Of a stretch of 64,000 nucleotides of DNA, positions 427 through 55,402 are shown piece after piece (the first letter of the stretch is position 1; each line of letters starts with the position of its first letter). The notes beneath the pieces were generated by a model that did no database searches, was not told where the DNA came from, and worked only from the letters and a program-made list of their open reading frames with translations. The translations under genes and the position numbers were made by a program. The stretch is from a virus, in the IMG/VR virus record IMGVR_UViG_3300042691_017212, positions 1-64,000 of that record. One strand, given 5' to 3'.

Positions 427-1059
427 GTGGGAGATGATAATATGAGTATCTGGAAAGTAAATAATATTTTTTCTGCAGAAGAGCTGCATGATATTATTGA
501 AGCAGTTAAAAACAAAAAAAGTTTATTTAATGAAAACTTTGTTTTTCAAGGTAAAGTAAAATATGAACTTGCTCATGGTCTTGGAATTGATAATGATCTT
601 GGTAGACTAAAAATTGGCAGAATAGAATTTACAAAAAAAGCGGTGGAAACTTTAAATAATCTAATAAAAGATAAGACCGATAAAGATTTATATTTTGATG
701 GTGCTAGTTGTTTTGAATACAGTAAAACATTTGGTGTGTCAAATTTACCAGCTCATGTTGATGGAGATTCAACAGACTTGATGATTAATTTTCAGCTAGA
801 ATCAAACACTTCTTGGGATCTTGGACTAGATTTAAATCTTTACAGTCTAGAAGATAATTCAGCAGTAATATTTAATCCTAATGAAGTAATTCATTGGAGG
901 CCAATAAAGAATTTTAATGACGGGGAATTTGTAAGAATGATATTTTTTAGATTTACAGACAACAAAACAAATAATAGTCATCTCCCTTTGATGCAAGATC
1001 ATGAAATGTTTGCTGAAGTTAAAAAATACAGAGATGAATTGTGGGAAAGTTCTAAATAA
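427..1059 (+). CDS. 2-oxoglutarate/Fe(II)-dependent oxygenase, divergent
   Basis: This 210-residue protein has the facial triad of the 2OG-Fe(II) oxygenase fold: His110-x-Asp112 (PAHVDGD), a distal His156 (VIHWRP) and Arg170 for the 2OG carboxylate (FVRMIFF). It is more distant from the six other oxygenases in this window, lacking their shared YLNDDYEGGE strand. The substrate is unknown; protein side chains or a nucleotide are possible. Two starts compete. GTG 427 lies 6 nt after a TATAAT box and would be leaderless. ATG 442 has a GGGAG site 8 nt upstream. I list GTG because the same -10 to start spacing recurs in this genome. Confidence 0.75.
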   Translation: MGDDNMSIWKVNNIFSAEELHDIIEAVKNKKSLFNENFVFQGKVKYELAHGLGIDNDLGRLKIGRIEFTKKAVETLNNLIKDKTDKDLYFDGASCFEYSKTFGVSNLPAHVDGDSTDLMINFQLESNTSWDLGLDLNLYSLEDNSAVIFNPNEVIHWRPIKNFNDGEFVRMIFFRFTDNKTNNSHLPLMQDHEMFAEVKKYRDELWESSK

Positions 1060-2816: not shown

Positions 2817-2845
2817 ATTATAATGTTTTATTTTTACAAAGTCAA
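2817..2845 (-). promoter_or_regulatory. Strong minus-strand promoter
   Basis: TTGACT (2845-2840), a 17-nt spacer and a perfect TATAAT (2822-2817). The -35 box overlaps the stop codon of the methyltransferase gene. Transcription should begin near 2810. Confidence 0.75.
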
Positions 2846-3462
2846 GACTTATATACGATACATTGACCAGTATCTAGTTCTAGCATTTTTTGTGAGCCAA
2901 GCAATTCTATCGCTGCCATTTTAGCTCCTAAAGTTTTTTTAGACCCAAAGTCATCTAACACCATTACAGATCCAGGAATCATTCTTTTCCAAAAATACTC
3001 TATAGAGTATTTTGTAGGCTCATAAAGGTCTACATCTATATTTACAAAACTATATTCTAATTCTGGTAGCGATTTTAGTATTTCTGGAATCCACCCGTCA
3101 ATTATTTTTACATTTTTATATCTAGACAAAGTCATTTCTGCGTATTTTTTATCAATTGATAGATCATGTTTTTTAAAATAATCAGTATCTTCTTTACTAG
3201 GTTCGGAAACTCCTTTAAACGAGTCTATTGCTATAAAAGTTTCTTTGCAATATTCTGCTGTAAAAAAAACAGACATTCCAGCATAAATGCCAGCCTCTGC
3301 AAAGCTGGCATTATTATGTGTTTTCGCAAGCTGTCTAAGTATGTGCATTCTTGCATATGTATTAGAATTTATATCGTATTCTAAATTAAAGTACCCATGG
3401 AACTCTTTAGCTAGTTTTAAAAAAACTTCGTCTTCAAGCCAAGGGTTTGTTTTTCCTGGCAT
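2842..3462 (-). CDS. TylF/macrocin-O-methyltransferase-like SAM methyltransferase
   Basis: This 206-residue protein matches the TylF type of class I SAM-dependent methyltransferases. It has the SAM loop FAEAGIYAGMSVFF (about residues 55-68), the acidic strand end IDSFKGVSEPS, the loop VKIIDGWIPEILKSLP, the metal-site signature VNIDVDLYEPT and, downstream, VMVLDDFGS. TylF enzymes methylate sugar hydroxyls using Mg2+, so a role in modifying phage or host glycans is plausible. It is the last gene of a minus-strand operon. Its ATG follows the TAA of the previous gene with no gap and no clear ribosome binding site, suggesting translational coupling. Confidence 0.85.
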   Translation of the reverse strand: MPGKTNPWLEDEVFLKLAKEFHGYFNLEYDINSNTYARMHILRQLAKTHNNASFAEAGIYAGMSVFFTAEYCKETFIAIDSFKGVSEPSKEDTDYFKKHDLSIDKKYAEMTLSRYKNVKIIDGWIPEILKSLPELEYSFVNIDVDLYEPTKYSIEYFWKRMIPGSVMVLDDFGSKKTLGAKMAAIELLGSQKMLELDTGQCIVYKS

Positions 3463-16270: not shown

Positions 16271-17629
16271 ATGGCAATTTCTAAAAAAAGATTTGGTACG
16301 CAAAGTTCAGCACAAGATAACTTCTTAGAGCCAAATGCTGTAACAATCAGCGGAGCTACAATGGTTTCTGGTCGCCCCTATGGAAATGGAGCAATTACAT
16401 TAACTTACTCCTTGCCAGCAGCCTCTCCACCAGCAACATTATATACGTTTACATCAACACCAGCAACAACAACTCAAACTTCAACAAATAATTCAACATA
16501 TACTTTTACTGGACTATCTGGAGGTACAAGTTACACAATTACAATAACACCATCAAATGCAGCTGGTAATGGTGCATCCACCACAAGCTCTTCTGTAGCA
16601 ATTGTAACTGTTCCACAGGCACCATCTGCTCCAACTGCAACTGCTCAGGTTAATCAAGATTCCGTTTCTTGGTCAGCTCCAGCAAATAATGGTGGCTCGG
16701 CAATTACTGGATATACATTAAAATCTAGTGATGGTCCAACATACAATTATAATGCTAGTACAACATCAGCAACAATTTCAGAAACTGGTGGAACTAGCCA
16801 GACATATCAAGTTTTGGCTACAAATGCTCAGGGAAACTCGTCATATTCGGCTAGCTCTAATCAAGTTACTACACAATCGCCGTTCTTCCCATTCTTCCCA
16901 CCGTTCTTCCCATACTTCCCACCGTTCTTCCCGTTCTTCCCGTACTTCCCACCGTTCTTCCCGTACTTCCCACCATTCTTCCCGTTCTTCCCATACTTCC
17001 CACCATTCTTCCCGTTCTTCCCGTACTTCCCACCGTTCTTCCCATACTTCCCGTACTTCCCACCGTTCTTCCCGTACTTCCCATACTTCCCACCGTTCTT
17101 CCCATACTTCCCGTACTTCCCACCGTTCTTCCCATACTTCCCATTCTTCCCAGGCTTTGGACCAAAAGTTCCAGCATACAAGTGCGTATCTGTCGATACT
17201 GAAGTTTTGGCTAAAGACGGATGGAAGAAAGTAGAAAACCTTCAGGTTGGAGATAAATTAATAACAATTCATCCAGAAGATTTTAATTACGAGACACAAA
17301 GTGCAAATATAAGTTCGTCTCAAGTTAAATTTGTAGAAACTACAATTACATCTATAGAATATAGCGAAAAGATGACTTATCAGTTGAACGATTCAGAATC
17401 TAAATACTCTGGACAGCAACCAATATTTATCAAAGATGGAGACATCTTCTTGGCAACAACAGTAGATACAGTTCAAGAAGGTTCCATAATGCTAAAGGTT
17501 GATTCAGATGGAAATGTCTCTGAGATTGAATTAAAGTCAATCAAGGAAATGTCAGAAACTAAGGTAGCTGATATAAAGACAGCAGAATATGGATGGCTGA
17601 TCTCTAAAGATAACGTCTTAATGTTCTAA
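16271..17629 (+). CDS. Adhesin: two fibronectin-like domains, FFPxFPP repeat, C-terminal Hint domain
   Basis: The 452 residues divide into three parts. Two fibronectin type III-like domains lie at about residues 32-110 and 113-200 (YTFTGLSGGTSYTITITPSN and the second APSAPTATAQ start). An uninterrupted aromatic-proline repeat of FFP, YFP and FPP units fills 205-294. A Hint (hedgehog/intein) domain begins at Cys305 (CVSVDTEVLAKDGWKKVENL) and runs to the end. The final block EYGWLISKDNVLMF aligns with the usual EHNFYANGVLVHN end, but His-Asn is replaced by Met-Phe. Cys305 may therefore still form a thioester, while Asn cyclisation cannot happen. It ends the fibre cluster, is closed by a perfect terminator and is followed by prolyl-hydroxylase-like genes. 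Confidence 0.8.
   Translation: MAISKKRFGTQSSAQDNFLEPNAVTISGATMVSGRPYGNGAITLTYSLPAASPPATLYTFTSTPATTTQTSTNNSTYTFTGLSGGTSYTITITPSNAAGNGASTTSSSVAIVTVPQAPSAPTATAQVNQDSVSWSAPANNGGSAITGYTLKSSDGPTYNYNASTTSATISETGGTSQTYQVLATNAQGNSSYSASSNQVTTQSPFFPFFPPFFPYFPPFFPFFPYFPPFFPYFPPFFPFFPYFPPFFPFFPYFPPFFPYFPYFPPFFPYFPYFPPFFPYFPYFPPFFPYFPFFPGFGPKVPAYKCVSVDTEVLAKDGWKKVENLQVGDKLITIHPEDFNYETQSANISSSQVKFVETTITSIEYSEKMTYQLNDSESKYSGQQPIFIKDGDIFLATTVDTVQEGSIMLKVDSDGNVSEIELKSIKEMSETKVADIKTAEYGWLISKDNVLMF
16883..17152 (+). repeat. FFP/YFP/FPP coding repeat
   Basis: Ninety codons built from TTC, TAC and CCN only, in 21-nt and 30-nt units. Phe is always TTC and Tyr always TAC, unlike the TTT/TAT-rich neighbours. All reading frames and parts of the opposite strand stay open because of the repeat. 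Nearly identical units recur at 54066-54194. Confidence 0.9.
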
Positions 17630-17718: not shown

Positions 17719-18462
17719 ATGGAATCAAAAACACAATACGACAATTCAGGAGACACCTGGCTATACAAAGATAGGTCAGAAACTGCTTCTAAAAGAATAG
17801 AAAGAGTTTTTGGAGATATAAAAGTAGAAAACCCAGGGCTCGGATTGAATATATATAAAAATGCTTTTACAAAAGATCAGATAGACAACATTATAAATGC
17901 ACTAGAATCTAATGTTGGAAGCGGAGTTTATAGATGGAATGAAGCCACTGTAACAAACTCAACTACACCAATTAAAAAAGCTAGAGACTGCGTTGATTTC
18001 AAGATGAGCAGAAACTCCCTTGGCCCACGTAATGAAAAGAATGCTGCTCTGCACGATGTTTATGAAACAGTTTTTGATACTCTTAAGAAGTGCGTAGACG
18101 ATTATTCTAAGTATTGGGGCATATTTGTTAACTGGTATGAAGTTTTTAATTTTGTTAAGTATGAGGGTGAAGGAAAAGAGTTTAAGATTCATGGAGACCA
18201 CGGACCAAAATATGTGTGTACAGTTTCTGCAGTAATTTATTTAAACGATGATTACGAGGGTGGCGAAATACATTTCCCAAGGCTAGACGACATTGTAATA
18301 AAACCTTCTTATGGAGACATAGCCGTATTCCCATCAAATTATATATATGAGCATGCCTCATTGCCAATAAAAAGCGGTACAAAGTATTGTGTTGTCATAA
18401 TGATGGACATTAATGATTTGGGTCATAAAGATAACCCATATGCAGTAAAGGTGGAACAGTAG
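17719..18462 (+). CDS. Prolyl-4-hydroxylase-like 2OG/Fe(II) oxygenase
   Basis: A 247-residue enzyme of the prolyl-4-hydroxylase-like 2OG-Fe(II) family. The iron ligands are His158-x-Asp160 (FKIHGDHG) and His212 (YEHASLP), and Lys222 (SGTKYCV) is placed to bind 2-oxoglutarate. The strand YLNDDYEGGEIHFP between them is the family's core signature. It would use O2 and 2OG to hydroxylate a side chain, proline being the classic target. It is the first gene after the FFPxFPP/Hint adhesin and the first of five oxygenases in one unit. It is transcribed from a promoter with no leader. The target is inferred from neighbourhood only. Confidence 0.88.
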   Translation: MESKTQYDNSGDTWLYKDRSETASKRIERVFGDIKVENPGLGLNIYKNAFTKDQIDNIINALESNVGSGVYRWNEATVTNSTTPIKKARDCVDFKMSRNSLGPRNEKNAALHDVYETVFDTLKKCVDDYSKYWGIFVNWYEVFNFVKYEGEGKEFKIHGDHGPKYVCTVSAVIYLNDDYEGGEIHFPRLDDIVIKPSYGDIAVFPSNYIYEHASLPIKSGTKYCVVIMMDINDLGHKDNPYAVKVEQ

Positions 18463-19145
18463 TGGAACCAGTAGTTGAATCACAAAATGAAATAAAGCAA
18501 ACCTGGAGCTTAAAAGAAGATATGGGGAATGGTATCTGGGTATATAGAGATGTTCTTCCAAAAGATTTAGACATCATAAACAGACTAGAGTCTATTCTTG
18601 GGGCTTCAAATAATTCTTTTAATTGGCAGCCAGCATATGTAGGCTATATGGAAAGAATGCCAGAATATAGAGATTGTGTAGATTTTAAATATAAAAAAGA
18701 AAATTTAATTGGTTATCCAACACAAGCAGCAAAAGATTTAGTTCAAATTTGGCAAGACTGTTATGATAGAAAATCTGAAGCAGTAAAAGATTATTGCAAG
18801 ATGTATAACATACAAGAATTAAGATACTGGGAGTCTTTTAATTTTGTTAAGTATGAACCAGGACATCATTTTATGGAGCATCATGATCATGGGTACTCAT
18901 ACAACTGTACCGTTTCTTTGGTCTCATATTTAAATGATGATTATGAGGGTGGAGAGATTTATTTTAGATTACAGCAGCTTAACATAAAACCAAAAGCTGG
19001 GGACTTATATGTATTCCCTTCTAACTTTATGTATCCTCATCAAGCAATGCCAGTAAAGTCTGGAACTAAATACTCATTAGTTACAATGTTAGATTATAGT
19101 TCAAAGTATCATAACCCTAAGTTCTATCAAGAAACAGGGGACTAA
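18462..19145 (+). CDS. Prolyl-4-hydroxylase-like 2OG/Fe(II) oxygenase
   Basis: A GTG start overlapping the previous stop by 1 nt gives 227 residues. It has His140-x-Asp142 (MEHHDHGYS), the YLNDDYEGGEIYF strand, distal His193 (YPHQAMPV) and the 2OG-binding Lys in KSGTKYSLV. It is the closest relative of the oxygenase before it: both share YRDCVDFK or ARDCVDFK-type segments and ESFNFVKYE or EVFNFVKYE. It therefore looks like a tandem duplicate. The two probably act on related substrates. Confidence 0.88.
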   Translation: MEPVVESQNEIKQTWSLKEDMGNGIWVYRDVLPKDLDIINRLESILGASNNSFNWQPAYVGYMERMPEYRDCVDFKYKKENLIGYPTQAAKDLVQIWQDCYDRKSEAVKDYCKMYNIQELRYWESFNFVKYEPGHHFMEHHDHGYSYNCTVSLVSYLNDDYEGGEIYFRLQQLNIKPKAGDLYVFPSNFMYPHQAMPVKSGTKYSLVTMLDYSSKYHNPKFYQETGD

Positions 19146-19867
19146 TGTCTATACTGAAGGCGTATCAGTCACATGAAAATGCATTAAAGATAACTCCAAT
19201 GCCAATGCAGAGATATTGGGCAGAGGACACTTTTGCACGACACGCCTATCATTGTTTTCCAGTAACTACAGCAAATACTATAGGGTGGTATTTATCTTCT
19301 AAATACAGAATTGTTTTTGAGTGGGACGGAATATATCCAGATCCAACTGGAGAACATTTAACAATTATAGAAGGACAAGATTATTGTCACTCTAAAAGAG
19401 GGCATTTAACATTAAGTATAGGTACTGGATTAAAATTTACATCAGATAAAAATATTAGCTTGTGGACAATCAATCCAGTTAATTATTTTAATAAAGATTG
19501 GGAGGTTATGTCATCCCTTATTAGTACTTCTTTTTATAACCAAGAACTTCCTTTAGCTCTTAGAGTGATTTCTCCAAATAAAAAAATTGTTATAGAGCCA
19601 GGAGAACCAATAGCAACAATTGTTCCAATATCTTTAAGTTTATTAAAAAATGAATCAATAGACATTTATGATTGGCATATGACAGCAGAATATACACAAT
19701 ATAACAAAGAGTATGGAGAGGCTGCTGCACAAAAAAATATGCGTGGAATATGGACGGATTGGTACAGAGATGCAGTAAATTATAAAGGAGAAAAAATAGG
19801 AGAACATGAAGCCAAAGCACTTAAGCTTAAGGTGAATAACTATTCAGAAAGATTTAAGGATGAGTAA
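19145..19867 (+). CDS. Conserved protein of unknown function in the oxygenase cassette
   Basis: This 240-residue protein has the pattern HCFPVTTANTIGWYLSSKYR, then IEGQDYCHSKRGHLTLSIGTG, then EPGEPIATIVPISLSLL. It resembles proteins annotated as DUF6065, which I recall only from general knowledge. The segment layout suggests a small cupin-like beta barrel. The next gene has a weakly similar plan. Its place among 2OG oxygenases suggests a partner in the same modification pathway. No catalytic motif is certain. Confidence 0.6.
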   Translation: MSILKAYQSHENALKITPMPMQRYWAEDTFARHAYHCFPVTTANTIGWYLSSKYRIVFEWDGIYPDPTGEHLTIIEGQDYCHSKRGHLTLSIGTGLKFTSDKNISLWTINPVNYFNKDWEVMSSLISTSFYNQELPLALRVISPNKKIVIEPGEPIATIVPISLSLLKNESIDIYDWHMTAEYTQYNKEYGEAAAQKNMRGIWTDWYRDAVNYKGEKIGEHEAKALKLKVNNYSERFKDE

Positions 19868-20603
19868 TAAAATAAGATTTGTTGCTAATAGGCCATGGTT
19901 AGATAAGGACAGTTTTGGTGCACCCACTACAATACTAAAAACAATTCCAGACTGGTATAGAAAGGCTGACAGGTTTGCAAAAAACCAAAAGGGTGATTTT
20001 GTTATCGGACCCGATAAAGGAAAGATACCAACGTGGAAAGCTTGTCCAGCAGTATTTGATGTTATGGGTACTGGGTATGCTTATGTAACTCCTTATGACA
20101 TAGAATTTTTTATAAATGATAGGGGCGTGATTGATGCCAAGATATTGAATAATGAAAACAGTCCATCATTTTATCCAAGTTTAGTTACCCCAAGACCTCC
20201 AATGCCCCAGTTTCATCATCCAGAAGGATACTACAAAGATCATTTTGCTTGGTTCCCAGAGTGGGCAATAGAGACCCCAGAAGGATATAGCGCACTGTAT
20301 GTTCACCCATTAAATAGATATGAACTTCCATTCTTTACAGTTAGCGGGATTATTGACAATGACGATGTTAACCTCCCAGGTTCAATGCCGTTTTTTGTAA
20401 GGGAGGGATTTGTTGGTATAATTGAGGCAGGTACCCCGTTTGCACAAATAATACCTTTTAAGCGTGAAGATTGGGAATCCGAAATCATTATAGAAAGTAA
20501 ATATGATTTAGCTAGAAAAAATGCAATTAACTCACAAAGATTTAGAAGACCAAATGGTGGGGTATATAAAAATGAGGTTTGGTCTCAAAGGAAATATACA
20601 TGA
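19860..20603 (+). CDS. Conserved protein of unknown function, paralogue-like of its neighbour
   Basis: A 247-residue protein overlapping the previous gene by 8 nt. The pattern KACPAVFDVMGTGYAYVTPY, then FHHPEGYYKDHFAWFPEWAI, then EAGTPFAQIIPFKREDWESE mirrors the order seen in the preceding gene (Cys-Pro start, GY or GW aromatic strand, then an E-x-G-x-P-x-A strand). The two are therefore probably distant paralogues. Proteins of this type travel with 2OG oxygenases in phage contigs, as far as I recall. Function is unknown. Confidence 0.6.
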   Translation: MSNKIRFVANRPWLDKDSFGAPTTILKTIPDWYRKADRFAKNQKGDFVIGPDKGKIPTWKACPAVFDVMGTGYAYVTPYDIEFFINDRGVIDAKILNNENSPSFYPSLVTPRPPMPQFHHPEGYYKDHFAWFPEWAIETPEGYSALYVHPLNRYELPFFTVSGIIDNDDVNLPGSMPFFVREGFVGIIEAGTPFAQIIPFKREDWESEIIIESKYDLARKNAINSQRFRRPNGGVYKNEVWSQRKYT

Positions 20604-21277
20604 AAAAAGACTATGCTAATGATATGGAATGGCTACAGAATAGAGTTTCTATAACTCCCTCTGGGTTTTTCGGTTCCTCACCAGAAATGATTCAATCTAG
20701 AGAAAATTTTATGACAGATAAAGAATTAGAATTTTTGTCTAGTCAAGCTAGATCTATTGATGAGTGGGATATAACAGAAACACACTATAATGAAGAAGGC
20801 ACAATAATATACTATTCTGAATACTGGAAAGATCGTGTGGCTTCTAGACCGATATTGGATAAAAAGGATCCTATGATTGCTAGAACTATAGATGGCATGG
20901 TTGCAAGATTAAAAAAAGAAGTAGATAGTTTTTTTAAAGTCAATGCCATACCAACTAGTCCAGCTATAGTTAGATGGATGCCTGGATATAAGCAAGAGCC
21001 TCATGCAGACAAAGAACTTCATATTGGAGATGACGCAGGAAAGCCAAATGATTTTCCATATTATGATTTAGCAGGATTGTTTTATTTAAATGATGATTAT
21101 GAAGGCGGAGAGTTATATTTTCCAAATCAAGAAATTAAATTTAAGCCAAAAGCAGGGGCAGCATATTTTTTCCCAGGAGATAAAAATTTTATTCACGGCG
21201 TATCAGAAATAACTTCTGGAATTAGATATGTGATACCGTTTTTCTGGACTATAGCAGAACATGTAGGAGATAATTAA
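20600..21277 (+). CDS. Prolyl-4-hydroxylase-like 2OG/Fe(II) oxygenase
   Basis: I choose ATG 20600 with AAGGA 8 nt upstream; the open frame extends to a TTG at 20579 that would overlap the previous gene by 25 nt. The 225-residue protein has His135-x-Asp137 (EPHADKELH), the FYLNDDYEGGELYFP strand, distal His199 (FIHGVSEI) and Arg209 (GIRYVIPFFW). The Arg at the 2OG site differs from the Lys in the two preceding oxygenases and matches the two that follow. It is probably an active hydroxylase. Confidence 0.87.
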   Translation: MKKDYANDMEWLQNRVSITPSGFFGSSPEMIQSRENFMTDKELEFLSSQARSIDEWDITETHYNEEGTIIYYSEYWKDRVASRPILDKKDPMIARTIDGMVARLKKEVDSFFKVNAIPTSPAIVRWMPGYKQEPHADKELHIGDDAGKPNDFPYYDLAGLFYLNDDYEGGELYFPNQEIKFKPKAGAAYFFPGDKNFIHGVSEITSGIRYVIPFFWTIAEHVGDN

Positions 21278-21279
21278 AA

Positions 21280-22116
21280 ATGTCAATTAACTTTATAGAA
21301 ATATTTCCAAAAATTCATGTATACCCAAATGCATTAGAAAATACAGATTTTTGGATAAAGGATTCTTTAAATGGCTCACATCAATGGAATGATTGGGGAA
21401 TGTATGGTAAAGCATTTTCAACTTCTCAAAATCTTGTAATCCATGAAAAATTCCCAGAGTTTGATCAGTTTTATAAGAATGCAATAAATGAAAGTCACTA
21501 CCCTTCTTTTGCGGACGTGTACGGAAAAGCTTTTTACAAAAACACTAAGCACTGGCTAGAAATGTATCCTATGGAATTGGATAACTGGATAAGTTCTGCA
21601 CCAGCAATATGCCAGTATACATTAGGGCCAAAAAATGGTCATGGTACTACGTTCGTAATGGCTTATCATTCTGATTATACAATAGGAGAAGAAACTTGGC
21701 CTGGAGATAAATTTGAATTAACTGCAACACTTTATTTAAACGATGACTATGAAGAAGGAGAGATTTGTTTTGTTGTAAAAAATACAGATGGAACAGATAC
21801 TAGGTTTTCTTATAAACCAAAAGCTGGAGACATGATGGTTTTTCCAGCAAGACCTCCTTATTTTCATGCAGTAAAAAGAGCTTATGGAGATAATAGATAC
21901 ATAGTAAGATCATTTTGGCAGTGTAGAAAAGATGGAGACGCTGCTTGGCATGAAGGCATTGAAAAATATGGTAAAGAAAAATGGAACGAAATGAAGATGG
22001 CAGAAATCCATGAGTATAGACAAAAGCATATCCCTAATCCAGAAATATACGCAGACAGTTACAACAGAGACAATGAAAGGCTAGGATTAAATCCAGATGG
22101 AACTTTTAAAGTTTGA
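21280..22116 (+). CDS. Prolyl-4-hydroxylase-like 2OG/Fe(II) oxygenase
   Basis: A 278-residue enzyme with His130-x-Asp132 (AYHSDYT), the LYLNDDYEEGEICF strand, distal His196 (YFHAVKR) and Arg206 (NRYIVRSFW). It carries a C-terminal extension of about 55 residues (EKWNEMKMAEIHEYRQKHIP and onward) predicted helical, absent from its cassette partners. It starts 2 nt after the previous gene and overlaps the next by 20 nt. Confidence 0.87.
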   Translation: MSINFIEIFPKIHVYPNALENTDFWIKDSLNGSHQWNDWGMYGKAFSTSQNLVIHEKFPEFDQFYKNAINESHYPSFADVYGKAFYKNTKHWLEMYPMELDNWISSAPAICQYTLGPKNGHGTTFVMAYHSDYTIGEETWPGDKFELTATLYLNDDYEEGEICFVVKNTDGTDTRFSYKPKAGDMMVFPARPPYFHAVKRAYGDNRYIVRSFWQCRKDGDAAWHEGIEKYGKEKWNEMKMAEIHEYRQKHIPNPEIYADSYNRDNERLGLNPDGTFKV

Positions 22117-22876
22117 TGACCTTGTTATAAAAGAAATCGATACTAGTACATTTATTTACATGAAAAATGAACCCAACAATAAGGGTGTTTTAAATGTACC
22201 AGAAAATAAAATTGTTGAAATACCAAATTTTATTACACCAGATGCTCCAGAAAGACTGATACATTACTTTGAAAATTGCGGAGTAGAATGGGGAGATATT
22301 GCTTTTTATGGATCCTCTGGAAAGGGTTTAAAGCCTGATGCTGCAAAGTTAGCAGAAAGCGGACTACCCTCAACTTTCTTTGAAGACATAAAGTCTAAGT
22401 TTCAAGAATCTGTAGAGACTGTTTTTGGCAAAAAAGTAAGAGCTAATACTTCCCATGCACAGAAGTGGGATGTCGGAGGATTCGCCCCACCGCATTCAGA
22501 TAATTCTGACAATGATGGAACCCCAAATGCGTTTGAAATAAATAAATATGTTGCAATCTTGTATTTAAATGACAACTATGAAGGTGGAGAGTTGTTCTTT
22601 TTAACAGGGTGGCCAGGAGAAACATGGCTTTCCTTTAAGCCAAATAAGTATTCTTTAATTGTTTTCCCAGGAGGCGTAGAAAATATTCACGGAGTTTCAG
22701 AAATAACAAAAGGAACTAGATACACGATGGTGTCATTTTGGGACTTTGCAGATTTAGAGTATGACAAAGAAACTCTAACAAAATGGGAAGAAATGACAAA
22801 AGTGGTAAGGCAAGAGCAGGCTGTACAAAAAGAAGAATGGAAGGCAGGCATAGGCCTACCTCCAAAAGATAACTAG
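22097..22876 (+). CDS. Prolyl-4-hydroxylase-like 2OG/Fe(II) oxygenase
   Basis: A 259-residue enzyme with His133-x-Asp135 (APPHSDNSDND), LYLNDNYEGGELFF, distal His198 (NIHGVSEI) and Arg208 (GTRYTMVSFW). The distal His to Arg spacing of 10 residues is the same in all the cassette oxygenases. An N-terminal addition of about 35 residues precedes the common fold. The gene starts inside its upstream neighbour without a clear ribosome binding site, implying coupling. It closes the cassette. Confidence 0.87.
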   Translation: MELLKFDDLVIKEIDTSTFIYMKNEPNNKGVLNVPENKIVEIPNFITPDAPERLIHYFENCGVEWGDIAFYGSSGKGLKPDAAKLAESGLPSTFFEDIKSKFQESVETVFGKKVRANTSHAQKWDVGGFAPPHSDNSDNDGTPNAFEINKYVAILYLNDNYEGGELFFLTGWPGETWLSFKPNKYSLIVFPGGVENIHGVSEITKGTRYTMVSFWDFADLEYDKETLTKWEEMTKVVRQEQAVQKEEWKAGIGLPPKDN

Positions 22877-50204: not shown

Positions 50205-53200
50205 GTGCCTATATATAGAAAAGCAAATCCTGGAGATCCTGGTGAGTCAGGCGGATGGATAAGATTAAAAAACATATATCGAAAAGCAGACCCTGGAGAT
50301 CCTGGTGAGTCAGGCGGATGGATAAAGTTAAAATCAGTTTGGAGATTTTTGGGTGGGTCTTCCTGGGAAAGAGTATTTGGAATTTTATGTCCTTACTCTA
50401 CTGGCTCTGAAAATGTTCCAAAGTTTTACTTTATAGAATCTCCATACACGTCTACAGCAAACAAAAGCCAAGACGCAGATAGGTACTCTGGAGCGGCGTG
50501 GCAAAACTCAAAAATTTATATAACAAGAGGTAAATGGGAAGAAAGCCCAATATACTTTGAGTTTACATTTCAAAAATCTTTAAATGGCGGAAGCTTTACA
50601 AATATAGGAAGTCCAATAGTAAAAACATATACTTCTTATAATGATAATCAATCTACCGATTTTTTTCCTGCATCATCATCAAATTGGCCTCTTATATCTC
50701 TTAGCGATGTACAAAATTCTGCTAAGTATAGAGTTAAGGTAAGAGCATCAGACACTAATCCTGCTTCAGAATCAGATTTGGATTGCTCTCTTGTTTATTA
50801 CCCAATAGAAAATGGCATATCTCCAAGACTTAAATTTGCTTTTAATCCATATGGAGCAGACAATGACCCAAATATTAGCGGTGTTTCAGAAAATCAATCT
50901 TTGTCTAATTATGTAAATAAACAATTAGCTATACAATGGAGATACAACACTACTTTAGTTCCTACTAACCAAAATTCTAATTCATACAAGCATCAGATTG
51001 TCTGGATGGAATCTATGGAAGGGGAAGTAGTTTTTGGACCAATAGACGTTCCAGTTACTAATACTGCTACTCAGTCGTATACAATAAATTATCCTCAGTC
51101 TGTAGCAGACGCTGGAGGGGAATATGTTGTTAATGTTTTAACAGTTGCAAATGATGGTTACTGGTCAGCAAATTCTTTACAAGGCCATATAGACAGTCTG
51201 GAAGAAACAAGTAATTTAGCTAGCTTCTTATGGACACTTCCAACCAAACCAGTAACAGATAATACTCATGATATAGGATCTAATTCTAAAAATAATAGAG
51301 GAAGAATAGGATCTACAGCAGTACTGCTTTCAAAAGGAAATTGGACAAAGGTAACAGAAGAAACTACATATCTGTATAAAATGAGGATATACGACACTAA
51401 TCCTTTAGACCCCATTGATGTTATTTCAAATGATACTGGAGTTTTTTCTATATCAAGTCAATATGTTGGTAAGCAAGCAAGATTTACAGTTACGGCAACA
51501 AACCCTGGAACATCACTATTAATAAATAGACAGACAGAGTCTATTGGAAAAGACTATAGCATAGACAGTCCACCTGTAGTAACAATAACTTCTCCAACAA
51601 GTAATGTTATATCCGCAAATACTAATTTTCAGATAGAAGCAACTATAACCAATTACCCAACACAAATTACTGTTAATACCACCATTGCAGGTGCCTCTGC
51701 AGCTAAAGATGGTTCATCTGACTACAACAATGTCGTAATATCAATTCCATCAAATACTGCTATATATGATTACTCAAGCCCACAATTGCAATATCCATCT
51801 GGTGGAAATAGATTAATACAAATTACAGCTGAGCCAGAAGGATCTTATGATTTTAAAAATATAACAGTGCCACTTTCCTCTATAACTCCAGGAACAGTAG
51901 AGCTAGTACAACCTTGCGGAGATGGGAAATTTGCAGTGGGAGACTACTTTAATATTGTACCAGTAGGCTGGGTTGGAGACAATGGAGGAGATCCCGATCT
52001 AATATTAAATTATCAATATCGTTATTTTGTCAATGGAGTTCCAAGAGAGTATAACGACGAGATACCAAATAGAATTGGAGATTTCGGAGAGTCAGTAGGC
52101 GATGTGGTTAGAGGTGAAGTTAAGTCAGCATTTTTAAATCCAATTGATTTATCTAAGAGTGTGGAGACAGACTGGATACCTTCTCAAAATTATACAATTG
52201 TTGCTGGTCCAACATACGGCGACTGGGGATTCTGGAGCATTTGCACAGATGTAGATGGTGTAAAGAAAAGTTCAAGATCAAGAACAGAAACTGTTTGCGG
52301 AGTCACCACTACTAAAACAGAAACAAAGAATTGCGGATGGTATTGTACAACAGTTGGTCAAGGAGCTACATGTACTTGCACACAAACCGTAGAAGCTACA
52401 AACATAAGTGGAACTGGTTCTGGATTTTCTACATCATGTAGTGAATCAGGATTTCCTTCATGCCAAGCACCATGTACATGTAATTCAACAGAAGAGGCAA
52501 AATGTACTGCATGGGTTAGAACCTATACGGCTGATTGGTCCGCTTTTGGAGAATGTTCTGCAACTGTATTCGGAATTCCTGGAACAAAAACTCAAACTCG
52601 ACCTTATGTTGAAACTAGAATTTGCCCAACTGGATCTAGTTCAACTAATGAAAATGGAGTTACAACATTAATACTACCCTCGCCTTGCCAAACTTCCAGA
52701 ACTGGAACTCATGTAAATTCTGTTTCATGTTGTAAGGTTGGAACAGAGACATTTGATCCAAGAACAATATATGGTCAATATTCTGAATGGACTGCATGCG
52801 GCACTGCCCCATCTAAATCAACAAGAACTAGAAATATTACTCAAAGAGTTAGTACTAGAACTTATAATGAAGATTGTACCTATACAGATGGCACTAGCGA
52901 CACTGTTACTGTAGATACCGAAACTGCTGATTGCTGGTATTGTACAGAAAATTATCAAGGGGTTAATTGCATTCCATGTGGATACTCAACTGCAATTTTT
53001 AATAATAGTGGAAGTGGTTCTGGTTACATCAGGTCTTGCAGCACTGCTGGATATCCGTCATGTTCAATAAATTGCGTTTGTAATTCTACTGAAGAAAGTA
53101 AATGTACAAATTGGTCTTCATGGAGTGAATGTACTGGACCTACTGGGGCCAAAACAAGAACTAGGACAAGAACTTGTCCGTCTGGATCTCCATGCATAAC

Positions 53201-54803
53201 AACAGAAACTCAAGATTGCTGGTATTGTACAGATAGTTATAATTCAAATTGTGCTGGTTGCGGGTACCATATTGAAGGATCTAATGTTTCTGGTGGAGGA
53301 AATTCTTTTTATTCTACAGCTTGTAGTAGAACAGACTTTCCGTCATGCCAAACATCATGCGTTTGCAACTCCACCTTAGAGTCTCAATGTGGAGGCTGGA
53401 GTAGAGTCGAAGGCACTTCGACTGATTGGAGCGCATGTAATGCAATTGGAGACACACCTGGTAGACAATGTAAAACTACTCCATACACACAAACAAGGAC
53501 ATGCCCTGCAGGCAGTCCATGTGTTACATCTGAATCTGGAAGTACACAACAATGTAGAGACTGCTGTACAGCAAAAACAACTTGCGATACCCCAGTAGTT
53601 ACATATGGAACTCCAACAGAATGGAGTGCTTGCTCAGGAAATCCACCTACTCAAACTAGGTCTATGCCTAGAACTACCAAGACAACATGTACTACTAGAG
53701 CAGTAGATTGCTCAGAATCAACTAGCACTACAACTGTAAATGATACATATGTAGAAACTAGAAGTTGCTGGTACTGTACAACAAGCGTAAGTCAAAATTG
53801 TGCAGGGTGTACTGAAACTATAGAAGGAAGCAATATAAGTCAGAGTGGTTCTGGATATTCAATTAGCTGTAGTCAGGCAGGATTCCCATCTTGCGGAACA
53901 CCCTGCTCATATTGGTGGTGCAAAACCACAAGACAAGAGTCTGGATATTGTGCTTTGAGCGGACCACATACGTCAAGTCAAGCTGGTGTTTCAGGAGGAG
54001 GATTTGTTACTGTTTGCCAGCAGGCTGTTTCGCAGCCATATAGCTGTCAACAATCCCCAGCACCGTTCTTCCCGTACTTCCCACCGTTCTTCCCGTACTT
54101 CCCGTACTTCCCACCGTTCTTCCCGTACTTCCCGTACTTCCCACCGTTCTTCCCGTACTTCCCGTACTTCCCACCGTTCTTCCCGTACTTCCCAACTTTC
54201 GTTATTGATACTATCAATACTATTAACACTATCAATACTATTAACACTATCAATACCATTAACACTATCAATACCATTAACACTATCAATACTATTAACA
54301 CTATTGATACTGGCGGTGGTGGTGGATGCCACGTTGTAGGAACTAAAATTCAAATGTCAGATGGGACATTTAAAAACATTGAAGATCTTTATATTGGGGA
54401 TGAAGTAATGGCAGCAAACATACCAGGATTGCCAGACAATGAAACTGATATAAACAATTTAGAATTGTGGTCATCTGAAGATATTTCTGGGACAACAAAG
54501 ACTATAGCTAATGTGACAAATGTTATCATTAGATCCTATGAACAATATTATTTAATTAATAATTCTATCAAGATAACCTATGAGCACATGGTTCCAGCCA
54601 ACCAAGAAGGAATCTGGAAGTTTATAAAGGTAGAAGATTTACAGATAGGCGATATCATTGTTAATGAAAACTTAGAGAATATAGTAGTTATGTCAAAAGA
54701 TTTAATTAATGATTCAGTAAACACAGTTTCAATTGACATTGAGGATAAAGATGTTTATTTTGTTGAGGGCCTAATGGCACACAACTTGAGCGCAAAGACA
54801 TAG
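50205..54803 (+). CDS. Giant tip adhesin: TSP1-like cysteine repeats, FFPxFPP repeat, (TIN) repeat, C-terminal Hint domain
   Basis: A GTG start gives 1532 residues. A 21-residue unit, YRKA(N/D)PGDPGESGGWI(R/K)LK, occurs twice at the start. A beta-rich stem follows up to about residue 665. Then thrombospondin type 1-like repeats begin near residues 671, 778, 858, 968, 1073 and 1138 (for example WSSWSECTGPTGAKTRTRTR), alternating with a Cys-rich module of about 60 residues that starts CWYCT and includes GFPSC. Residues 1288-1330 are the FFP/YFP/FPP repeat and about 1336-1365 are ten TIN triplets. A Hint domain begins at Cys1375 (CHVVGTKIQMSDGTFKNIED) and ends YFVEGLMAHN (His1526-Asn1527) plus five residues. 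Cleavage instead of splicing is expected because no nucleophile follows Asn directly. Confidence 0.82.
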   Translation: MPIYRKANPGDPGESGGWIRLKNIYRKADPGDPGESGGWIKLKSVWRFLGGSSWERVFGILCPYSTGSENVPKFYFIESPYTSTANKSQDADRYSGAAWQNSKIYITRGKWEESPIYFEFTFQKSLNGGSFTNIGSPIVKTYTSYNDNQSTDFFPASSSNWPLISLSDVQNSAKYRVKVRASDTNPASESDLDCSLVYYPIENGISPRLKFAFNPYGADNDPNISGVSENQSLSNYVNKQLAIQWRYNTTLVPTNQNSNSYKHQIVWMESMEGEVVFGPIDVPVTNTATQSYTINYPQSVADAGGEYVVNVLTVANDGYWSANSLQGHIDSLEETSNLASFLWTLPTKPVTDNTHDIGSNSKNNRGRIGSTAVLLSKGNWTKVTEETTYLYKMRIYDTNPLDPIDVISNDTGVFSISSQYVGKQARFTVTATNPGTSLLINRQTESIGKDYSIDSPPVVTITSPTSNVISANTNFQIEATITNYPTQITVNTTIAGASAAKDGSSDYNNVVISIPSNTAIYDYSSPQLQYPSGGNRLIQITAEPEGSYDFKNITVPLSSITPGTVELVQPCGDGKFAVGDYFNIVPVGWVGDNGGDPDLILNYQYRYFVNGVPREYNDEIPNRIGDFGESVGDVVRGEVKSAFLNPIDLSKSVETDWIPSQNYTIVAGPTYGDWGFWSICTDVDGVKKSSRSRTETVCGVTTTKTETKNCGWYCTTVGQGATCTCTQTVEATNISGTGSGFSTSCSESGFPSCQAPCTCNSTEEAKCTAWVRTYTADWSAFGECSATVFGIPGTKTQTRPYVETRICPTGSSSTNENGVTTLILPSPCQTSRTGTHVNSVSCCKVGTETFDPRTIYGQYSEWTACGTAPSKSTRTRNITQRVSTRTYNEDCTYTDGTSDTVTVDTETADCWYCTENYQGVNCIPCGYSTAIFNNSGSGSGYIRSCSTAGYPSCSINCVCNSTEESKCTNWSSWSECTGPTGAKTRTRTRTCPSGSPCITTETQDCWYCTDSYNSNCAGCGYHIEGSNVSGGGNSFYSTACSRTDFPSCQTSCVCNSTLESQCGGWSRVEGTSTDWSACNAIGDTPGRQCKTTPYTQTRTCPAGSPCVTSESGSTQQCRDCCTAKTTCDTPVVTYGTPTEWSACSGNPPTQTRSMPRTTKTTCTTRAVDCSESTSTTTVNDTYVETRSCWYCTTSVSQNCAGCTETIEGSNISQSGSGYSISCSQAGFPSCGTPCSYWWCKTTRQESGYCALSGPHTSSQAGVSGGGFVTVCQQAVSQPYSCQQSPAPFFPYFPPFFPYFPYFPPFFPYFPYFPPFFPYFPYFPPFFPYFPTFVIDTINTINTINTINTINTINTINTINTINTINTIDTGGGGGCHVVGTKIQMSDGTFKNIEDLYIGDEVMAANIPGLPDNETDINNLELWSSEDISGTTKTIANVTNVIIRSYEQYYLINNSIKITYEHMVPANQEGIWKFIKVEDLQIGDIIVNENLENIVVMSKDLINDSVNTVSIDIEDKDVYFVEGLMAHNLSAKT
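50229..50325 (+). repeat. Tandem 63-nt repeat at the adhesin N-terminus
   Basis: A 34-nt block (50229-50262) is repeated exactly at 50292-50325, a period of 63 nt or 21 codons, coding PGDPGESGGWI. Confidence 0.85.
54066..54194 (+). repeat. FFP/YFP/FPP coding repeat, second copy
   Basis: Forty-three codons of TTC, TAC, CCG and CCA in 30-nt units, matching the repeat at 16883-17152 nearly base for base. The codons are G+C-rich compared with the surroundings. Confidence 0.9.
54210..54299 (+). repeat. 18-nt tandem repeat coding ten TIN triplets
   Basis: Alternating ACTATCAAT and ACTATTAAC (or ACCATTAAC) gives ten Thr-Ile-Asn units between the FFP repeat and a GGGGG linker before the Hint cysteine. 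Confidence 0.9.
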
Positions 54804-54820: not shown

Positions 54821-55402
54821 ATGATTACAGAAAACCTAGGTAATAATATATATATGTATAAAAATGTTATTTCTGAAGATTTAGATATTTTGTCTGAGCT
54901 TAATAAAATATTGTCTGACTATAATAAAGATTACAATGCTGCAACAATAAATAATCATGACTACGATACATCTTTAAGGTCTTGCACCGTATTCTCTTTA
55001 TATCCAACTTTTGGGGAAGATAAACAGTTTAATAATGCAAAAACTATTCTTAATAAAAAAATAGATATGGCTCTTTCTGAATGCATATTGCACTTTATTA
55101 AAAATACAGGAATTAAAATAAAAGAAAGAGAGCCATGGGAAATATTAAAATACGAAATATCGCAAAAGCTTACATGGCACAGCGACGATGGTAAAAGTCA
55201 TCCAGCAACCATCTCGTTTGTTTATTATATAAACGATGACTATGAGGGCGGGGAGATACAGTTTAGAGATCTTCTTGATAAAATTCCTATAAAGCCTGAA
55301 AAAAATAGTTTAATAATTTTTCCATCAGACGCAAAATATGTGCATAGGGTGCTTCCAGTAACATCTGGAGTAAAGCATGCAGTAATATCTTTTGGTAAAT
55401 AA
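54821..55402 (+). CDS. Prolyl-4-hydroxylase-like 2OG/Fe(II) oxygenase
   Basis: A compact 193-residue enzyme with His120-x-Asp122 (TWHSDDGKSH), the YYINDDYEGGEIQF strand, distal His175 (YVHRVLPV) and Lys185 (SGVKHAVIS). The His to Lys distance of 10 and the Lys make it most like the first two cassette oxygenases at 17719 and 18462. It starts 17 nt after the stop of the giant adhesin with no terminator between, so they are one unit. This is the same neighbour relation as at 16271-17719. Confidence 0.88.
   Translation: MITENLGNNIYMYKNVISEDLDILSELNKILSDYNKDYNAATINNHDYDTSLRSCTVFSLYPTFGEDKQFNNAKTILNKKIDMALSECILHFIKNTGIKIKEREPWEILKYEISQKLTWHSDDGKSHPATISFVYYINDDYEGGEIQFRDLLDKIPIKPEKNSLIIFPSDAKYVHRVLPVTSGVKHAVISFGK

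Follow-up and report, generated by a model that had tools for sequence, protein, structure and literature searches.

A recurrent phage cassette of putative prolyl hydroxylases beside a gene for a phenylalanine, proline and tyrosine array

Introduction

Why should a tailed phage carry five 2-oxoglutarate (2OG) oxygenase genes in one tightly packed cassette, and on what would so many related enzymes act? The question is raised by IMG/VR virus record IMGVR_UViG_3300042691_017212 (70,113 bases), of which positions 1 to 64,000, here called the window, were analysed and in which the cassette spans positions 17,719 to 22,876. From the enzyme load a preliminary description of the window had deduced several protein or glycan targets, most likely fibre proteins made nearby. 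The evidence presented here points instead to one kind of target, a Phe/Pro/Tyr array in the adjacent tail protein. Linkage, fold and covariation together suggest, with a probability that we put at roughly 0.78, a phage pathway that multiply hydroxylates the proline-aromatic repeats of this protein.

The cassette and the adjoining array

The cassette proved to be real as first described, with seven open reading frames (ORFs) on the + strand whose junctions overlap by 1, 1, 8, 4 and 20 nt or, in one case, leave a 2-nt gap. Two oxygenases with Lys at the 2OG site (K type), m2 (17719..18462; PF13640, 1.8e-10) and m1 (18462..19145; PF13640, 1.1e-14), are followed by a DUF6065 protein (19145..19867; PF19541, 3.7e-24, 85.9 bits; phrog_7084, 6e-8) and a DUF6065-like protein (19860..20603; phrog_7084, 1.4e-29). 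Three oxygenases with Arg at that site (R type) complete the set: p1 (20600..21277; PF13640, 8e-9), which holds a conserved position, p2 (21280..22116; PF13640, 1.3e-7), which is missing in some relatives, and p3 (22097..22876; PF13640, 1.7e-9). The 20600 ORF starts with ATG, and an alternative TTG start at 20579 is open too. All five oxygenases have intact HxD...H iron triads and score above the PF13640 gathering cut-off, and the reported division at the 2OG site holds (K in 17719, 18462 and 54821, R in 20600, 21280 and 22097).

The gene directly upstream of the cassette (16271..17629, + strand), itself directly behind the tail-fibre/minor-tail gene 13033, is the proposed substrate gene, and it was overlooked in the preliminary description, as were the Hint domains. 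It encodes an fn3 region (PF00041, 8e-8), an array made purely of Phe, Pro and Tyr (array 1; 16880..17152, +) and a degenerate Hint-like C-terminal domain (17183..17626, +). Array 1 has 91 residues (42 F, 37 P and 12 Y), in which the single-proline motif FP[FY]F was counted 17 times and FPP 9 times; trypsin would find no site in it. Compared with complete copies, the Hint-like domain has kept Cys1 and is missing TxxH and the C-terminal HN; it was not detected by a Pfam search.

A second proposed substrate of 1532 aa (50205..54803, +) contains array 2 (54063..54194, +; 44 residues, 18 F, 18 P and 8 Y) and a Hint domain (54327..54800, +) that is complete, with Cys1, TYEH as its TxxH and a C-terminal HN; its Pfam matches, PT-HINT (0.0013) and Hom_end_hint (0.0016), are both under the cut-off. 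An (Ile-Asn-Thr)n repeat (54195-54326, +) lies between the array and the Hint domain. Just behind this gene stands another K-type oxygenase (54821..55402, +; PF13640, 5e-14), which by best-hit grouping resembles the final gene of longer cassettes. Thus both array proteins directly precede an oxygenase, 16271 before 17719 and 50205 before 54821.

In the 97 distinct arrays found across loci, 96.8% of the 6,025 codons encode F, P or Y. All four proline codons (CCA, CCG, CCT and CCC) are used, yet hardly any one-step change has turned TTC into a codon for Leu, Ser or Cys; this composition, with proline third positions left free, argues for selection on the array protein. Arrays 1 and 2, being F, P and Y alone, are not Gly-X-Y collagen, and one relative clade with FFGPPG repeats gave a PF01391 match below the cut-off. 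The Hint domain probably serves in processing. Several lineages have lost it or keep a degenerate copy, like that at 17183, and for this reason it was rejected as the conserved target.

Linkage in other viral contigs

Relatives were taken from IMG/VR viral contigs, among them 59 loci from a scan by array DNA pattern alone and the best 80 of 503 relatives from a scan by the 19860 protein alone. An array ORF lies upstream of the first oxygenase in 100 of the 101 cassettes that have at least 600 nt of upstream DNA (median gap 71 nt), a count that is only incompletely dereplicated, as it includes some contigs under two locus ids. The order seen most often runs from the array through m2, m1, the DUF6065-like pair and p1 to p2/p3, followed by one to several more oxygenases; m1 occurs in nearly all complete cassettes and the pair is nearly always present. 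Since this gene order is repeated in hundreds of sequences from uncultured phages, the cassette is no chance arrangement.

Starting from the array led to the same enzymes: 45 of 60 array ORFs in the array-pattern set have an oxygenase no more than 1 kb downstream, and of the remaining 15, nine follow a cassette as second array genes, about 1-1.3 kb past its last oxygenase. The portal protein was used to fetch further loci, and those without a cassette had no array. In one clade of portal-fetched loci (L151, L152, L159, L166 and L179) the cassette lacks m2; in the four of these whose upstream DNA is visible, that DNA encodes another repeat, FFGPPGFFSPP. In this clade, two further genes (180 and 197 aa) stand between the array gene and m1 (L151, 1075-2173).

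A search of 50,697 records of cultured phages gave no cassette with array and DUF6065 pair. Zero relatives of 19145 turned up there, those of 18462 were mainly from cyanophages at below 35% identity, and those of 19860 were from haloarchaeal viruses. A bacterial or archaeal origin was rejected, as the array pattern was absent from genome_contigs; only three relatives of 19860 occur there, all on contigs of metagenome-assembled genomes, and one of them is a full cassette with array. No publication on such a phage cassette was found in a literature search limited to open-access papers.

Covariation of m2 with the single-proline motif

The cassettes differ in the enzymes that they contain, and the presence of m2 follows the composition of the array. 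It is present with arrays of single-proline FP[FYHR]F units and absent where there are only PP or G/S/A-PP units. This pattern was first seen while the cassettes were being tabulated (57 loci with both m2 and motif, 10 with neither, one, L042, with the motif only and none with m2 only) and was then checked on 234 loci fetched by three other m1 queries. Among the 115 of these with new arrays, 75 had both, 38 had neither, two had m2 without the motif and none had the motif without m2, so that 113 of 115 were concordant. The two exceptions are L331, whose single prolines stand in FPHF and FPRF, and L446, with a truncated array of 21 aa. Combined agreement is 183 of 184 loci when H and R are counted as the middle residue, L446 is dropped and two short-array loci missed by the detector (L365 and L315) are added by hand, all of them choices made after the data were seen.

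On the m1 tree there were five losses of m2 and four of the motif, and all four of the latter coincide with m2 losses (L365, L069, L121 and one clade of 46). A dependent Pagel model was preferred to an independent one (likelihood ratio test 36.1, p=2.7e-7). The loci without m2 go back for the most part to a single old event, and therefore the real support amounts to four events. That one enzyme is found only where the array has single prolines points to the array as the target of the enzymes.

Phylogeny, active sites and fold of the oxygenases

A tree of 150 non-redundant oxygenases groups m2, m1 and p1 by gene position, each in essentially one clade, while p2, p3 and the additional members fall into further clades of mixed position. 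HxD is kept in 150/150 and the distal H in all except two gapped rows. An AlphaFold2 model of m1 (predicted local distance difference test, pLDDT, 93) has a double-stranded beta-helix fold like that of prolyl 4-hydroxylase (P4H) and PHD enzymes, with a best PDB match at E=3e-11. The 50 best PDB matches listed were protein prolyl hydroxylases, among them P. putida P4H, PHD2, PBCV-1 vCPH, algal P4H, Bacillus P4H and human C-P4H-II, and one putative Shewanella oxygenase. This fold evidence comes from the 18462 model, and the remaining enzymes are placed by sequence profile: the K-type profile matches Bacillus P4H at 2e-7, and the R-type profile A3, which includes 20600 and 22097, matches prolyl 3-hydroxylase 1 at 1.6e-11. 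The cassette oxygenases are thus best read as putative protein prolyl hydroxylases. Cassette-type 2OG oxygenases are also matched by phrog_2297, phrog_274 ("DNA endonuclease"), phrog_3531 and phrog_2954 ("ferrochelatase"), names that look like annotation errors.

Two further oxygenases had been reported elsewhere in the window. That at 54821 is above the PF13640 cut-off; the other (427..1059, +) is weaker, with no Pfam match, phrog_2954 at 4e-6 and an HVD...H...R pattern recognised by eye. It is probably a distant 2OG oxygenase and a candidate member of the system.

The DUF6065-like pair and additional tailoring genes

The two cassette genes first listed as related proteins of unknown function are indeed paralogs, as 19145 reaches the DUF6065 gathering score and 19860, which has no PF19541 match, falls in the same PHROG. 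The 19860 model (pLDDT 93) gave weak fold matches to dUTPase/dCTP deaminase (E ~4e-3, below significance). Identification of the pair as a known enzyme was rejected, as there was no PDB sequence match and fold matches were weak, and an open-access literature search found no paper on DUF6065. At a guess, the two proteins might present or chaperone the array. DUF6065-like genes also occur without array and full cassette (L460 1-10976, L215, L193, L196 and L217), in L193 beside NDP-sugar epimerase and glycosyltransferase-like genes. In haloarchaeal tailed viruses (L136, HSTV-2 gene 40), a relative of 19860 stands beside thymidylate synthase, without an annotated oxygenase nearby.

Some relatives carry more enzymes. 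In six loci (L100, L119, L342, L343, L363 and L373) an N-acetylglucosamine (GlcNAc) transferase of PF11397, which we take to be the Pfam family with Gnt1 as its defining member, lies in or next to the cassette, preceded by one more 2OG-like gene (8e-21). In the Skp1 pathway, Gnt1 adds GlcNAc to hydroxyproline and needs a hydroxylated proline (PMC6939170). PF11397 is not in the window cassette, and a search of the window's own record, which had no positive control, gave no match. In L287, m2 is separated from a Hint protein by genes for a sulfotransferase and an Asp/Asn-hydroxylase-like protein. The window itself encodes a possible sulfotransferase (1971-2567, +; PF13469 below cut-off, E=0.004), for which no similarity to the L287 enzyme was found, and a TylF/Methyltransf_24-like methyltransferase (2842-3462, -).

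Phage context

The portal protein (59%) relates the phage to Streptomyces phages of the Stanwilliamsviridae. We infer an actinobacterial host; G+C content is 36%. The Stanwilliamsviridae phage Karimac shares ribonucleotide reductase (RNR), gene 46, gene 47 and portal in the same order, but has only a LysM gene between RNR and gene 46, where the window has fibre genes, the array gene and the cassette. This fibre-array-cassette island (window 5036-25059), between RNR and the gene-46/47/portal block, is absent there in Karimac.

Discussion

We propose that the cassette could be an operon by which a tailed phage matures a protein of its own. Gene 16271, and likewise 50205, would make a tail-associated protein with an array of [F/Y]FP and [F/Y]FPP units, and the five enzymes would act on different prolines of the array or at different steps. 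Enzyme m2 would take lone prolines flanked by aromatic residues (FP[FY]F), and m1, p1 and the other enzymes the PP units. The virion might thereby gain a rod or fibre segment that is stiff, aromatic and rich in hydroxyproline, and more polar than the very aromatic unmodified sequence; in some relatives a hydroxyproline GlcNAc-transferase may then glycosylate it. Catalysis, sites, chemistry (3- or 4-hydroxyproline), virion location and purpose are what we infer in this scheme. A stronger version holds that there is a modification code, in which each oxygenase serves one proline context, and enzyme set and repeat coevolve to build a multiply hydroxylated, sometimes glycosylated non-collagen fibre on the virion; to this we would give even odds. 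The earlier suggestion of prolyl hydroxylation of a nearby fibre protein is still the best reading, now much better supported through linkage, covariation and fold.

Several observations weigh against array hydroxylation. Four co-losses are few events, and L042 lost m2 and kept the motif, two divergent 2OG genes occupying the place of m2. Co-inheritance within an operon yields linkage without enzyme-substrate contact. Three loci with more than 1.5 kb of upstream DNA (L100, L287 and L342) have extra genes or no visible array, neither array length nor Tyr content correlates with enzyme number, and the role of the DUF6065-like pair is left unaccounted for.

It is conceivable that the enzymes modify other proteins, such as host translation factors or other virion proteins, the array gene being a co-inherited neighbour. 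The closest fold match, P. putida P4H, was crystallised with EF-Tu, and tail-fibre regions are modular; however, loss of m2 and change of the motif coincide in four lineages, and a distant second array protein has its own adjoining oxygenase, so that we consider such targets unlikely. The array could also be the target with phenylalanine or tyrosine modified, as arrays are about 60% aromatic and the single-proline motif also alters aromatic spacing. This is quite improbable in our judgement, since the fold and sequence neighbours of the enzymes are prolyl hydroxylases and the aromatic position varies (F, Y or H) whereas P is constant.

A repeated core, several tailoring oxygenases and a self-processing domain, of which complete copies exist, would also befit a ribosomally synthesised and post-translationally modified peptide, oxygenated and then freed by the Hint domain to act against bacteria or as a signal. 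Yet array and enzymes persist in several lineages whose Hint domain has been lost or, as in the 17183 copy, has degenerated, and the array gene lies within the tail-fibre region, which makes a released peptide very improbable. Least probable is nucleotide or DNA modification with nucleotide-binding, dUTPase-fold DUF6065-like proteins, since for all the fold matches of 19860 and the thymidylate synthase beside its haloarchaeal relative, those matches are below significance, the oxygenases resemble prolyl hydroxylases and the array linkage would be left unexplained.

Comparison with known systems

Phage 2OG oxygenases are common and their targets mostly unknown. Here a target can be named and tested with a synthetic peptide. 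If the proposal of array hydroxylation is true, the cassette would be a bacteriophage counterpart of collagen or extensin maturation, yielding a new non-collagen hydroxyproline material, and its small prolyl hydroxylases would form a set with site preferences readable from natural covariation.

The cyanophage 2OG-Fe(II) oxygenases (phrog_61) belong to the same superfamily, at about 26-34% identity. The viral collagen hydroxylases (PBCV-1 vCPH, PDB 5c5t, and PDB 6ax6, presumably the mimivirus collagen lysyl hydroxylase/glycosyltransferase) share with the cassette virus-encoded P4H-fold enzymes and a repetitive virus-encoded protein. In those systems one enzyme or two act on Gly-X-Y collagen, whereas the cassettes keep five to eight dedicated paralogs in a constant order, and the accompanying array is of Phe/Tyr-Pro, Gly-free in most lineages. 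Extensin and mussel-foot-type repeats are likewise proline- and aromatic-rich and multiply hydroxylated, but are eukaryotic, secreted and not homologous to the array, so that the likeness is one of analogy only. In the Skp1 pathway (PhyA and Gnt1; PMC6939170), cytosolic prolyl hydroxylation is followed by GlcNAc transfer, an order of steps that the PF11397 enzymes in the cassettes of relatives bring to mind, although a single proline of a regulatory protein is modified there, unlike the modification of a whole array proposed here.

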